Assembly (NCBI GenBank): GCA_019237175.1
Contig: JAFAHP010000140.1
Span: 1 to 34,083, forward strand
Reading direction: 5' to 3'
Length of the DNA: 34,083 bases
Origin: Alphaproteobacteria bacterium
GTDB taxonomy: Bacteria; Pseudomonadota; Alphaproteobacteria; ATCC43930; CGMCC-115725
The position numbers were made by a program, and so were the translations under genes. The notes under the pieces were generated by a model. It did not search any database. It was not told the origin of the DNA and saw only the letters and a program-made list of their open reading frames with translations. Below are positions 23,845-30,019 of this stretch, one piece after another; position 1 is the stretch's first letter, and every line of letters starts with the position of its first letter.

Positions 23845-24417
23845 CTATCGCGCCTCGGTCCAGCTCTCGGAAAAAGCCAGCGCGCAGGTACTAAACGGCC
23901 GCCCTTCGCGCTGCATCGGCCAGGCGCGACCCGAAGCTTGCACCCCGTCGACGCTGAGCCGCGCGCCCAAGGCCGGGATCAAGAGAGTGCAAACGCCGTA
24001 GCGGCGGCCGCCCTCGCCGGGCTGGGTGTGGATCAACAGCGGTTCGCCGATGTCGTACCAGGTCAGCACGACTTCCTCGTCGGTCGTTACGATCCGCTCG
24101 GTCCAGAAATAATGCGGGTCGCCGGATTTGACGAATTCCGCGTCGGTAACCGGAATCCCGGTGTCGGCGGTCTCGGGATTGAGCATGCCTTGCACCGTGG
24201 TCTGCAACCAGCGCGCCATCGCGATGTTGTCGGAATAGATGCGCCAGCGGTCTTCGGTCAGCTCGCTTTTCACATAAAGGACATGGCCCGGGCCGCCCGG
24301 ACAGGTGATGATCCGCCAAAAGCTGGCGTTTGTGGTTTGCGGGCCGCCATCGGTCCCGCTCAGCCGGATAAAGGGGTTTTCGCCGGTCAGGATTACATGA
24401 TTTGGGTCGGCGGGCAT
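23845..24417 (-). CDS. hypothetical protein (190 aa)
   Basis: ATG at 24417; MPADPNHVILTGENPFIRLSGTDGGPQTTNASFWRIITCPGGPGHVLYVKSELTEDRW... Confidence 0.65.
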   Translation of the reverse strand: MPADPNHVILTGENPFIRLSGTDGGPQTTNASFWRIITCPGGPGHVLYVKSELTEDRWRIYSDNIAMARWLQTTVQGMLNPETADTGIPVTDAEFVKSGDPHYFWTERIVTTDEEVVLTWYDIGEPLLIHTQPGEGGRRYGVCTLLIPALGARLSVDGVQASGRAWPMQREGRPFSTCALAFSESWTEAR

Positions 24418-24597: not shown

Positions 24598-24951
24598 TCA
24601 GGCCGACAGCAGGGGACCGTGATCGTCGCAGTGGTCGCCGTGTGGATGATGGAGATGGTCGCCGACACGGTAATCGGTGTGGTCGCCATGCGGCACCGCC
24701 TCGTGGCCGCAACCCGGGCCGTGGACATGCGCGGCATCATGGCCGCCACAGCTATGACCGGAAGTGCAATGGTCGGGGTTGTCGGCCGACACCTCGATCA
24801 CATGCTCGTCGACGTGCCCTTCATGAGGATGGTGGAGATGGCCGTCGTGCAGGTAGTCGGTATGCCCGCCATGGCGCACCGCCGGATGGCTGCAGCCTGG
24901 TCCATGTTGATGGGTGTGGCCGGGATGTTGGCTAGCAGTACAGGTCGGCAT
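24598..24951 (-). CDS. His/Cys-rich putative metal-binding protein with internal duplication
   Basis: 117 aa with 28 His and 6 Cys; repeated module HxHGPGCxHxAVxHGxHTDYxxxxHLHHPHxxH. Confidence 0.8.
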   Translation of the reverse strand: MPTCTASQHPGHTHQHGPGCSHPAVRHGGHTDYLHDGHLHHPHEGHVDEHVIEVSADNPDHCTSGHSCGGHDAAHVHGPGCGHEAVPHGDHTDYRVGDHLHHPHGDHCDDHGPLLSA

Positions 24952-25033: not shown

Positions 25034-25303
25034 CTACTGCCAGGGTCCGGCGCTCTGACTATCCGGGGCAGGCGAAACGCTCGGTAGTTGCGACAGCGCG
25101 GCGCCCAAGGAAGCGTTCTCCCCGCCCGGCAGGTTGCTCAAGCGGCGCTGATCGAGTGTATAGACCGTTGCACCTAGAGGCGGGGCGATTTCGGCGCGTG
25201 CCCGGTCGAGTCGGGCAGCGGGAGCGGCATAATCCGAAGAGGATTCTTGACCAGCGCACGCGCCAACCGCGATCAGCGTGCACATCACGATCGCCTGCTT
25301 CAT
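25034..25303 (-). CDS. small lipoprotein resembling the N-terminal plug segment of a TonB-dependent receptor
   Basis: 89 aa; lipobox in MKQAIVMCTLIAVGAC; ARAEIAPPLGATVYTLDQRRLSNLPGGENASLGAALSQLPSV aligns without gaps to ARINIEPRIGASTYTLGPSAIQNLPEAQNTPIDNAILQMPGV of the adjacent receptor. Confidence 0.7.
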   Translation of the reverse strand: MKQAIVMCTLIAVGACAGQESSSDYAAPAARLDRARAEIAPPLGATVYTLDQRRLSNLPGGENASLGAALSQLPSVSPAPDSQSAGPWQ

Positions 25304-25455
25304 CGTCGGGAGCTGGGCCGGTTCCTTCTTTTTTCAAGCCGAACTCGATCGGGGACGCGGTAAGGAGCAGCCCCCGCATAGGGTGGCCCCGCCAGCTCGC
25401 GCTTCCCGCCGCTATAAATCGGCTACTAGCTCCCTTGTCGAGCGCGGTAGACGTT

Positions 25456-25474
25456 TGTTACGTTATATCATCGC
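25456..25474. promoter_or_regulatory. possible Zur-like operator
   Basis: TGTTACGTTATATCATCGC, about 50 nt upstream of the receptor start; partial match to the GTTATgTTATAACA-type Zur core as I recall it. Confidence 0.3.
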
Positions 25475-25523
25475 GACCGATCAATTCCGATTCCGAACCT
25501 GCGATCAACGTGAGGCAAGGGGT

Positions 25524-27797
25524 ATGGGTCACATATTCAAGCGCGCAGGAGCTGCGCTCGGGCTCGCCGTCCTGGTCGCACTGGCCATTTCTGATGGCGC
25601 CAAAGCGGACGATGCACCGGTGTTGTTGACCGGGCTGCCTCCGATCACGAACGGCGCGCCCGGCGGGTCAAATGGGCTGCTTGTTCTCGGCGCAAATTCG
25701 CCCACCGACAGCACCGCACCCGCCTCGTCGCAGGGCAATGTCTCGCTCGACATCAACGTAATTGCCAAACAATTAAATGAGGCGCGAATCAACATCGAGC
25801 CGCGCATCGGCGCCTCGACATACACCTTGGGGCCGAGTGCCATCCAAAACCTGCCGGAAGCACAAAACACGCCGATCGATAATGCCATCCTGCAAATGCC
25901 CGGCGTCGACCAAGATAATTTGGCGAATGGCGGGCTCCATATCCGCAACGAGCACTTGAACGTCCAGTATCGCATCAACGGCGTCATCATTCCGGATGGT
26001 GTGAGTTTCTTCGGTCAGGATTTGAGTATTCGCTTTGTCGATTCGATGTCGCTGATTACGGGTTCTTTGCCCGCCGAATACGGTCTGCGAACCGCCGGCA
26101 TCATCGATATCCAGAGCAAGAGCGGCCTCGGAAACCCGGGCGGCTCGGTCGAAATGTACGGCGGCAGTTATACTACCCTCAACCCCAGCATGGAGGTCGG
26201 TGGCGCGGTCGGCAACTACAACTATTTCGTAACCAGCAATTACTACCAAAGCATAAATGGGATAAATGACGTAACGTCAAAATATTACCAGATACATGAC
26301 GACACTCAGCAGGTCCATGCCTTCGCCTATATCGATAAAATTCTCGATCCTCACAACAGAATCAGCGTGATGGGCGGCGAGTTCAACGGTGACTTTCAGA
26401 TACCAAACAACCCCGGCCAGTCGACGTTTCCTGGCATTACAGAAATCAATGGTCTCCCTTCATCGCAGTTCAACTCCGCTCACCTCACCGAGTTTCAGGT
26501 CGAGGGCAGCCAGTTCGGGGCGGTCTCATTTTTGCACTCATTGGGGCCTCTCGACTTCCAGATCTCGGATATAGTCAAGTACAGTTTCCTGCATTATTAT
26601 CCCGATCTGTTCGGTGACCTCGCGTTCAACGGCATCGGCGAGAATGCCGGCCGGACCAGCTTGGCGAACTTTGTTCAGGCAGAAGGGACTTACCGGTGGA
26701 CAGCCAACCACACGGTGCGCGGCGGTATCCTCTTCACCACCGAACACGTGACCTCAAACGAAAACGCGGCGGTGCTAGACCAGATCGGGGCCGACAGTTT
26801 TGGAAATCCGATCTATGCGACAGTCCCTTCATTTATAGCCCAGAGCAGCGCCCAGACGAGTTTTACCTATAGCGGCTATCTCCAGGACGAATGGAAAGTA
26901 TTGCCGGCGGTGACCGTCAACTATGGGGTCCGCGGCGATGTCATAAACGGTTTCACCACCGGACAGCACCTCAGCCCGCGTGTTAACGCGGTGTGGCAGG
27001 CGACGCCGACGACGACCTTTCACGCGGGCTATGCCACTTATTACACACCACCGCCGCAGGAGCTGGTTGCAACCGAGAATATCTCTGCGTTCGCGAATAC
27101 GACCGGGGCGCCCGCTTCTACTCAGAATTCCCCGATCAAGAACGAAACGGCCCAATATCTGGATGTCGGGGTAAAGCAGCAGGCGCTCCGCGGGCTCACA
27201 ATAGGCGTCGATGTCTATTACAAGCACGCGAACAATCTGCTCGACGAGAGCCAGTTCGGCGCACCCATCATTCTGACGCCGTTCAATTATCGCGTCGGCA
27301 TCAACAAGGGCGTCGAGCTGACGACCGAATATAACGTTGGAAATTTCACTTTCTACGGCAATCTCGCGATTGCAAACCAGCTGGCAAGCGGTATCGAATC
27401 AGCGCAGTTCAATTTCACTCCGGCGCAGCTTGCCTCGGCCGACAGCATGTTTGTCAACACCGATCACAGCCAGCTCAAAACCGAATCGGCCGGTGTAGCC
27501 TATCTGTGGCACGGGACACGGTTTACCGCTGACATAGTCGCCGGCTCCGGCCTGCGAACCCAGCCGCCCAACGATCCGACCTTCAATGGTGAGACGGTCC
27601 CGTCCTACGAACAGGTAAATCTGGGCATCTCCCATGTCTTTCCGGCGAGTTTTGGTGGCCCGGTGACCGTGCGTCTCGCTCTCATCAATCTGTTCGACAA
27701 GATCTACCTGTTGCGCAGCATGACTGGGGTTGGCGAGTTTGCCAATCAATTCGGACCACGCCGTGCCCTCTACGCGGGTCTCAAAAAGGAGTTCTGA
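25524..27797 (+). CDS. TonB-dependent receptor
   Basis: 757 aa from ATG 25524; signal peptide; plug NLPEAQNTPIDNAILQMPGVDQDNLANGGLHIRNEHLNVQYRINGV; C-terminal VRLALINLFDKIYLLRSMTGVGEFANQFGPRRALYAGLKKEF ending in aromatic F. Confidence 0.92.
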   Translation: MGHIFKRAGAALGLAVLVALAISDGAKADDAPVLLTGLPPITNGAPGGSNGLLVLGANSPTDSTAPASSQGNVSLDINVIAKQLNEARINIEPRIGASTYTLGPSAIQNLPEAQNTPIDNAILQMPGVDQDNLANGGLHIRNEHLNVQYRINGVIIPDGVSFFGQDLSIRFVDSMSLITGSLPAEYGLRTAGIIDIQSKSGLGNPGGSVEMYGGSYTTLNPSMEVGGAVGNYNYFVTSNYYQSINGINDVTSKYYQIHDDTQQVHAFAYIDKILDPHNRISVMGGEFNGDFQIPNNPGQSTFPGITEINGLPSSQFNSAHLTEFQVEGSQFGAVSFLHSLGPLDFQISDIVKYSFLHYYPDLFGDLAFNGIGENAGRTSLANFVQAEGTYRWTANHTVRGGILFTTEHVTSNENAAVLDQIGADSFGNPIYATVPSFIAQSSAQTSFTYSGYLQDEWKVLPAVTVNYGVRGDVINGFTTGQHLSPRVNAVWQATPTTTFHAGYATYYTPPPQELVATENISAFANTTGAPASTQNSPIKNETAQYLDVGVKQQALRGLTIGVDVYYKHANNLLDESQFGAPIILTPFNYRVGINKGVELTTEYNVGNFTFYGNLAIANQLASGIESAQFNFTPAQLASADSMFVNTDHSQLKTESAGVAYLWHGTRFTADIVAGSGLRTQPPNDPTFNGETVPSYEQVNLGISHVFPASFGGPVTVRLALINLFDKIYLLRSMTGVGEFANQFGPRRALYAGLKKEF

Positions 27798-28028: not shown

Positions 28029-28149
28029 ATAAGAGAATGCAGGTACCATCCGTTAGAATTGCACCACTAGATAGGATTACCCAGCGGCTCCGAGGGATAT
28101 ATGGTCGGCTCAAATCGGCCCCCAACGACTTGTTCGCAGAGGCTTGCCC

Positions 28150-28833
28150 GTGCCCAATTCTCCCGTCTCACTTTCGGTTGTCAGCCTTTTTCTGCACGCT
28201 GATATCGTCGTCAAGGGTGTGTTGTTGCTATTGCTCGCCGCCTCCGTGTGGAGCTGGGCGGTCATTATCGACAAGTTGTGGCGCCTTGCCGCGGTCGGGC
28301 GGTCGGTTGAGGCGCATGAGGCGCTCCTCGCCGCGGCACATGGCGCACCCGACCTGATGGCACCATCTCGCCGACCGGGCGGCGGCGACCCGGCCGGCGC
28401 GGTGCTGGCGGCCGGCTTGCACGAGAGCGCCGAAGCGGCATGGGTTGCGCCCGAAAGCCCGGCCGAGCGGCGCGAGCGCATCGAGCGGGCGATGCGGCTG
28501 GTGCTGAACGCGGAATTGCGCCGGCTTGAAGCCCGCTTGCCATTCCTCGCAAGCCTGGCCTCGGCGGCGCCGTTTATCGGGCTGTTCGGCACGGTGTGGG
28601 GGATCATGCGCAGCTTTACCGGCATCGCCGCCGCCAACAATACCAGCCTTGCCGTCGTCGCCCCCGGCATCGCCGAAGCCTTGTTCGCCACGGCCATGGG
28701 GCTCGCCGCGGCGATCCCCGCAGTCGTCGCTTACAACAAGATCACCGTTGATCTCGGCCGCTTTGCCGGACGCATGAACGGTCTGATCGGGCGCTCGAGC
28801 ACCATCCTTTCGCGCGTCGCGGCGGAAACCTGA
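28150..28833 (+). CDS. exbB: MotA/TolQ/ExbB proton channel family protein
   Basis: LFLHADIVVKGVLLLLLAASVWSWAVIIDKLWRL; LASLASAAPFIGLFGTVWGIMRSFTGIAAANNTSLAVVAPGIAEALFATAMGLAAAIPAVVAYN. Start GTG 28150 or TTG 28144. Confidence 0.88.
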   Translation: MPNSPVSLSVVSLFLHADIVVKGVLLLLLAASVWSWAVIIDKLWRLAAVGRSVEAHEALLAAAHGAPDLMAPSRRPGGGDPAGAVLAAGLHESAEAAWVAPESPAERRERIERAMRLVLNAELRRLEARLPFLASLASAAPFIGLFGTVWGIMRSFTGIAAANNTSLAVVAPGIAEALFATAMGLAAAIPAVVAYNKITVDLGRFAGRMNGLIGRSSTILSRVAAET

Positions 28834-28835
28834 CC

Positions 28836-29270
28836 ATGGCGATGGCAACGCGGCCCGTCGGCGAGAGTAGCGAGGAGCGCTATCAGCCGCTGGCCGAGAT
28901 CAATGTGACGCCGATGGTCGATGTCATGCTGGTGCTGCTGGTGATCTTTATGGTGACGGCACCGCTGTTGATGGTCGGCGTGCCGCTCGATCTGCCAAAG
29001 ACGCGCGCCGCGGCGATCACCGAGCACAAGAAGCCGATCATCCTCAGCCTCGACCGCGGCGGCGAAGTATTCATCGGTGACGATAAGGTGGCGCCAGGCG
29101 AGCTTGAACCCCGGCTTGCGGCACTCGCCGCCGAAGATCCCAAACGCATCGTCTTTGTCCGCGGCGACAAGACGATCACTTACGCGCAGCTGATGGACAT
29201 GTTGGGCGAGGTCAATCGCGCCGGTTTTGCGAAAGTGTCGCTGGTCGCCGAAGCCTCCGGGTCGAAGTGA
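28836..29270 (+). CDS. exbD: ExbD/TolR family biopolymer transport protein
   Basis: LAEINVTPMVDVMLVLLVIFMVTAPLLMVGVPLDLPKT...VFVRGDKTITYAQLMDMLGEVNRAGFAKVSLVAE. Confidence 0.92.
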   Translation: MAMATRPVGESSEERYQPLAEINVTPMVDVMLVLLVIFMVTAPLLMVGVPLDLPKTRAAAITEHKKPIILSLDRGGEVFIGDDKVAPGELEPRLAALAAEDPKRIVFVRGDKTITYAQLMDMLGEVNRAGFAKVSLVAEASGSK

Positions 29271-30019
29271 ACGGGTTCAGGCTGCCGCTCATTCTCTCGC
29301 TGGCGGCCCATGCGATCATCCTGGGACTGCTGGTGATGCTGCCGGCGCCGATACCGCCGGCGGCACCTTCGCTCCCGAGCGGGATTGAGGTCGCGTTCGC
29401 ACCGTCGTTGCCGGCGCCGCCGCCCCCGCCTGCGCCTCCCCCGGTCAAGGCCGAACCACCGCCGCCACCCCCGAAAACCGACACACCGCGTCCAGTGGCC
29501 CCGATCGAGCCACCGCCGCCTGCTCCCGAAGCGGCGGTCGTGGTTCCGGAACCGCTCCTGCTACCGCCGCCGCCAAAGCCGCCGGTCCCGCCGCGGCGGG
29601 TCGCGGTTCGGCGCGTCGAGCGGCCAGTGACGCGCCCGGAGGAAGCGCCGGTAGCGCCGGTTGTTCCCGTGGCGCCGGCCCAGCAGGCGGCACTCGCGCC
29701 GGCGCGGGTGCGCCCACCTGCGTCCGCGGCTGTCAGTCCGGGATATCAAGCGCTGCTCGGCGAATGGCTGAATAGCCATAAGCGCTATCCCGAGGGTGCC
29801 CGCGAACACGGCGAGCAGGGCCGCGCGATATTACATTTTGCGGTCGAACGCAGCGGCCGGGTCACCGAATTCGCGGTTGTCAAAAGCTCCGGTTACCCGG
29901 ATCTCGACCAAGGGCTGGAGGAGATGATGCGGGGTGCGATTTTGCCGCCTTTTCCTGCCGACATGCCGCAATCCAGCATCAGCGTCTCGGTGACGATCCG
30001 CTTCACGCTCGAGCAATGA
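29267..30019 (+). CDS. tonB: TonB family energy transducer
   Basis: N-terminal TM, long Pro-rich linker, C-terminal KRYPEGAREHGEQGRAILHFAVERSGRVTEFAVVKSSGYPDLDQGLEEMMRGAILPPFP; 4-nt overlap (GTGA) with exbD. Confidence 0.9.
   Translation: MNGFRLPLILSLAAHAIILGLLVMLPAPIPPAAPSLPSGIEVAFAPSLPAPPPPPAPPPVKAEPPPPPPKTDTPRPVAPIEPPPPAPEAAVVVPEPLLLPPPPKPPVPPRRVAVRRVERPVTRPEEAPVAPVVPVAPAQQAALAPARVRPPASAAVSPGYQALLGEWLNSHKRYPEGAREHGEQGRAILHFAVERSGRVTEFAVVKSSGYPDLDQGLEEMMRGAILPPFPADMPQSSISVSVTIRFTLEQ

Follow-up and report, generated by a model that had tools for sequence, protein, structure and literature searches.

A soil alphaproteobacterium encodes a small, probably lipid-anchored protein of 89 residues which appears to be built from the beginning of the plug of a TonB-dependent receptor and to be maintained as a protein in its own right. 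Comparison with the receptors and with a second genome of the same genus, here called G004, establishes that the gene is real and descends from a receptor plug, that it has a stand-alone ortholog and that it is under purifying selection. The means of action is proposed more cautiously. At somewhat below even confidence, we favour the reading that this selected, receptor-derived lipoprotein acts from the periplasm on a TonB-dependent receptor encoded at its own metal-uptake locus, and we infer its binding to such a receptor more weakly, by analogy. The window, that is the whole stretch of DNA analysed here, comprises 34,083 nucleotides, and its relevant features are the following:

23845 to 24417, minus strand: gene of the 190-residue neighbour, no Pfam match; 92% identical in G004, where it also lies downstream of the lipoprotein gene
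25034 to 25303, minus strand: small lipoprotein gene, 89 codons and a stop, ATG start, TAG stop; ortholog in G004, dN/dS 0.28
25037 to 25075, minus strand: tail, residues 77-89, weakly constrained (pN/pS 0.70, from the alignment)
25076 to 25216, minus strand: plug-like core, residues 30-76; 17/42 identical to the receptor, pN/pS 0.34 against G004
25256 to 25303, minus strand: signal peptide and lipobox, residues 1-16, with Cys16 as predicted lipid site (from the sequence; GACAGQ kept in G004)
25304 to 25523, no strand: intergenic region common to the divergent genes (from the coordinates); its receptor-side part is conserved before the G004 receptor
25460 to 25471, plus strand: Zur-like box ACGTTATATCAT, a motif match in the intergenic region
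25524 to 27797, plus strand: TonB-dependent receptor, 757 residues (PF00593, E = 2.4e-27)
28144 to 28833, plus strand: exbB (PF01618)
28836 to 29270, plus strand: exbD (PF02472)
29267 to 30019, plus strand: tonB (PF03544)

The original prediction had described a minus-strand frame with a lipobox, about 220 bp away from a divergent receptor gene, and both points hold. The frame runs from 25303 to 25034, its lipobox reads MKQAIVMCTLIAVGAC followed by AGQ (V at -3, G at -2, A at -1 and C at +1), and the start codons of the two genes lie 220 bp apart, head-to-head. By inspection, a cysteine follows the hydrophobic segment, as is required of a lipoprotein, in the context VGAC in the window and LGAC in G004. 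Translation, lipidation and location are predictions from these features; the mature lipoprotein is expected to comprise about 74 residues, and its mature part contains no second cysteine. With alanine and not aspartate at position +2, a lipid on Cys16 would be expected to anchor the protein in the inner, periplasm-facing leaflet of the outer membrane, under a sorting rule which comes from E. coli and is applied here to an alphaproteobacterial lipoprotein. The frame belongs to no family in Pfam, NCBIfam or PHROGs, a PDB sequence search gave no meaningful match, and a search for a sigma-70 promoter of the gene found no match. The structure model of the lipoprotein is poor (pLDDT 61, pTM 0.34), and a fold search of the PDB with this model, meaningless at such confidence, returned no match.

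The count of identities with the receptor plug, previously made by eye, is correct: 42 residues of the frame align without gaps to receptor residues 87-128, with exactly 17 identities. The match scores 86, the best of 2000 segment shuffles scored 41 and 0/2000 reached the observed value, and BLASTP of the frame against the receptor gives E = 1e-9. When the receptor was compared with the entire window by tblastn, the only matches were the receptor itself and the 89-residue frame, so that no plug or barrel coding lies beyond the latter, as had been claimed. A hidden continuation of the plug via a frameshift was also considered and rejected, with no plug or barrel coding in any frame after the small gene. 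In the related receptor of G013, a genome of another genus, a match to the Pfam plug profile (below the curated cut-off) begins at residue 106, which corresponds to profile position 15, and the aligned segment is found there at residues 85-126; the frame thus represents the linker and about one third of the plug, from its start.

Compared with the start of the receptor plug (PF07715/PF00593), the lipoprotein is homologous over about 47 residues, with best identities, among the receptors compared, of 23/47 for the window copy and 26/47 for the G004 copy. It keeps the plug consensus residues GA-x-x-Y, PG-x-N and L-x-Q-x-P-x-V. The differences are equally marked: a TonB-dependent receptor carries plug and C-terminal 22-strand barrel in one chain, whereas the lipoprotein ends roughly one third of the way into the plug, bears a lipobox and has no barrel. 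The TonB box is also missing by inspection, the receptor reading SLDINVIAK where the lipoproteins read SSDYAAPAA (window) and SPDYAT-AA (G004). As the TonB-box pattern is not retained, a function as a decoy that captures TonB is unlikely and was rejected.

The second stand-alone copy is located in G004 (G004:C387:9904-10170), on a contig which is evidently JAFAOB010000239.1 of the Alphaproteobacteria MAG CP_BM_ER_1. It encodes 88 residues, 63% identical over residues 1-83, and shares with the window copy the lipobox and the residues that follow it (GACAGQ), the stop position and the 190-residue gene downstream; the sole indel between the copies is one codon, in frame. The suspicion that homologs exist only as the 5' part of full-length receptors is contradicted by this copy, if narrowly. 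For the one ortholog pair, dN/dS (Nei-Gojobori) is 0.284 over 88 codons with a dS of 0.97, with 0.216 for the mature core against 0.545 for the tail; the 83 differences are distributed over codon positions 1/2/3 as 22/20/41. Among 3000 neutral simulations with 83 differences each, 20% stayed free of stops and none had a pN/pS as low as observed. With a dN/dS of 0.28 and no matching neutral simulation, the frame can be regarded as a selected coding gene, as the original prediction had favoured, and not as an unconserved frame under neutral evolution. The constraint is moderate, since the dN/dS of the gene of the 190-residue neighbour is 0.064. Furthermore, the residues AEIAPP, DxRR and LG are common to both lipoproteins and absent from the receptors compared. 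The two lipoproteins are therefore placed in a separate clade, and the truncated form should be older than the split between the window genome and G004. The short form is represented by two sequences, each from a fragmentary metagenome-assembled genome, and from these it looks like a real, lineage-restricted gene derived from a receptor fragment.

The short form was searched for in the family and the order of the genome and in samples of its class and phylum, roughly 780 distinct genomes in all, where no more than 13 candidates were scored for any one genome of the two largest samples. Within this scope no stand-alone copy was found beyond G004, and the remaining strong matches among the candidates scored are receptor-length frames, receptors cut by contig ends or a frameshifted receptor. 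Because these other strong matches all belong to receptors, the short form is known from two of nine genomes of one genus; the 190-residue neighbour is present in 9/9. A protein scan of the contig collection using the window sequence alone gave no matches, and a two-sequence profile of the window and G004 copies recovered only the G004 contig. Several apparent short forms were rejected: a 231-residue frame in G024 is actually a frameshifted receptor, the short frames of G001 and G008 are cut by contig ends, and the matches at G009 C53 and G021 C447 look like chance frames. The G024 sequence (G024:C47; L019, L069) represents a receptor of the same class broken by a frameshift within the plug. 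A phage or plasmid origin of the lipoprotein found no support; it matched nothing in PHROGs, in phage records or among viral contigs, and these searches showed no sequence relation to phage lipoprotein families.

The divergent neighbour of the lipoprotein gene is a receptor with its own exbB-exbD-tonB, and the locus is probably a metal-uptake cluster with zinc as its putative substrate. The box ACGTTATATCAT differs by two mismatches from ATGTTATAACAT, with one match across the window versus 0.19 expected. The sequence GTTA-N5-TAAC, which is the Zur motif used for Caulobacter (PMC4176598), occurs in exact form before the receptors of G004 and G029, the window's own box being imperfect; with at most one mismatch it precedes 4/11 receptors, versus 0.52 expected from shuffles. 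In G009, znuA (PF01297, E = 8.8e-84) lies directly upstream of the receptor, and a gene similar to znuA appears to lie upstream of the receptor in G019. The Zur-like boxes and the position of znuA beside related receptors make zinc the likeliest substrate, and the window receptor belongs to a class that is probably Zur-regulated and may be compared with Caulobacter ZnuK and ZnuL (PMC4176598). The 190-residue protein is strongly conserved; all nine of the genomes searched in this genus have it, as do six from another genus in the family. Between its gene and that of the lipoprotein, positions 24598-24951 encode a 117-residue protein in which His is very abundant, alongside Gly, Asp and Cys; it has no Pfam match and was not found at the homologous loci of G004 and G002. 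The G004 ortholog, the Zur-like box, the exbB, exbD and tonB genes downstream of the receptor and the absence of the TonB-box pattern all extend the original prediction.

The tie between the lipoprotein and this particular receptor is a separate matter. The window receptor, judged over 25304-25600 and 25524-27797, looks like a mosaic: its 5' untranslated region and its leader with the first approximately 60 residues resemble the G004 receptor, and its body is closest to the G013 receptor (66%) and is not the usual body of its genus. For this reason, the receptor that now adjoins the lipoprotein may not be its original neighbour. In G004, the contig breaks off 232 bp upstream of the lipoprotein gene, before any receptor; the nearest receptor sits alone on a 2.8-kb contig, and the exbB contig terminates in a DDE transposase. 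By eye, the upstream end of the lipoprotein contig resembled the end of an IS630-type transposase, which Pfam did not confirm. The genome search that had been proposed found a conserved lipobox in G004, and the contig ends make a receptor linkage there no more than possible. In G002, which has the locus in common with the window, both the receptor and the lipoprotein have been lost, which is weak evidence of linkage because one deletion could have removed them together. This genome carries a TonB cluster in decay (G002:C306, L087, positions 3-1515), in which the 41-codon 3' end of a receptor lies between the 190-residue gene and exbB; a frameshift divides exbB, exbD is intact, and tonB is cut by the contig start.

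An alternative, which we consider nearly as likely as an action on the receptor, is that the selected lipoprotein has a role unrelated to receptors, for example as an envelope-stress or surface lipoprotein, and that its plug likeness reflects ancestry only. Selection and ancestry follow from the comparisons above, and receptor interaction is the more conjectural step; no plug-like lipoprotein was found upstream of receptor relatives among those examined, the body of the window receptor is closest to that of another genus, and the TonB box has been lost. However, the gene stands head-to-head with a receptor of its source class, and the plug consensus residues have been kept, without free drift. 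The original prediction had offered a plug-mimic lipoprotein or a receptor remnant, and both readings are partly true, since a functional gene and descent from a receptor fragment are both supported; a mimic or regulator of this very receptor was not borne out, the short form being absent beside the relatives examined.

A slowly decaying remnant, that is a truncated receptor gene which would have stayed under constraint for some of the period after the two genomes diverged and would now be drifting, seems improbable to us. It would agree with the patchy occurrence of the gene (2/9 genomes), with its faster change than that of the 190-residue neighbour, with a tail that is nearly free to vary and with the decay of the same locus in G002. 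In addition, the tail of the window copy stops where the VRG strand of the plug would sit, a strand lost there and retained as VLVRGQ in G004. Against such decay, both copies are intact at a dS of about 1 with lipobox and stop position in common, the observed pN/pS was not reached in any neutral simulation, the lipoprotein-specific residues common to both copies place the truncation before the split, and the lipobox signal is no receptor leader. An artefact, either a chance frame or a misassembled or frameshifted full-length receptor, is very improbable: the sources are metagenome assemblies and split receptors of the same class do occur (G024), but gene and neighbour recur in two independent assemblies, the sequence after the gene encodes no plug or barrel in any frame, and the shuffles rule out a chance match.

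The action on a receptor of the locus, which we prefer, would begin with a receptor 5' fragment, comprising the linker that follows the TonB box and the strand-helix(-strand) with which the plug opens, that was put behind a lipoprotein signal and then retained as a separate protein. Its N-terminal lipid would hold it on the periplasmic face of the outer membrane, in the inner leaflet, on the side on which plugs and TonB operate. From this periplasmic side the lipoprotein may bind the receptor, either in place of the N-terminal segment of the plug or paired with it, and binding may damp, hold or gate the receptor, much as Llp of phage T5 acts on FhuA. Llp is a small periplasm-facing lipoprotein which touches FhuA at the N-terminal segment of its plug and jams this receptor (PMC9586334). 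Like Llp, and like Cor of T1 and phi80, the window lipoprotein is a small outer-membrane lipoprotein facing the periplasm, by predicted placement; unlike the phage-borne Llp with its disulphide, it is plug-derived and chromosomal and has a single cysteine in its mature part. The parallel concerns the proposed action only, and Llp and the window lipoprotein show no sequence match. The most specific version, in which a chromosomal lipoprotein of a metal locus, made from the receptor's own plug, would gate or block that receptor periplasmically as a self-derived counterpart of Llp, appears rather doubtful to us.

Several lipoproteins are encoded beside an outer-membrane barrel or work with one, including TbpB, HpuA, SusD and LptE. 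These are mostly larger than the window lipoprotein and have an unrelated fold, and we know of no lipoprotein partner of this type that copies the plug. Lipoproteins acting on TonB-dependent receptors are already known, but our literature searches found no selected, stand-alone lipoprotein made from the plug segment of a receptor. If receptor binding is true, the lipoprotein would illustrate a simple route by which a regulator can evolve from a piece of its target, and it would provide a minimal tool for addressing the role of the first plug elements in TonB-driven opening. If the lipoprotein does not bind a receptor, it would still exemplify how a piece of a receptor can give rise to a new gene.
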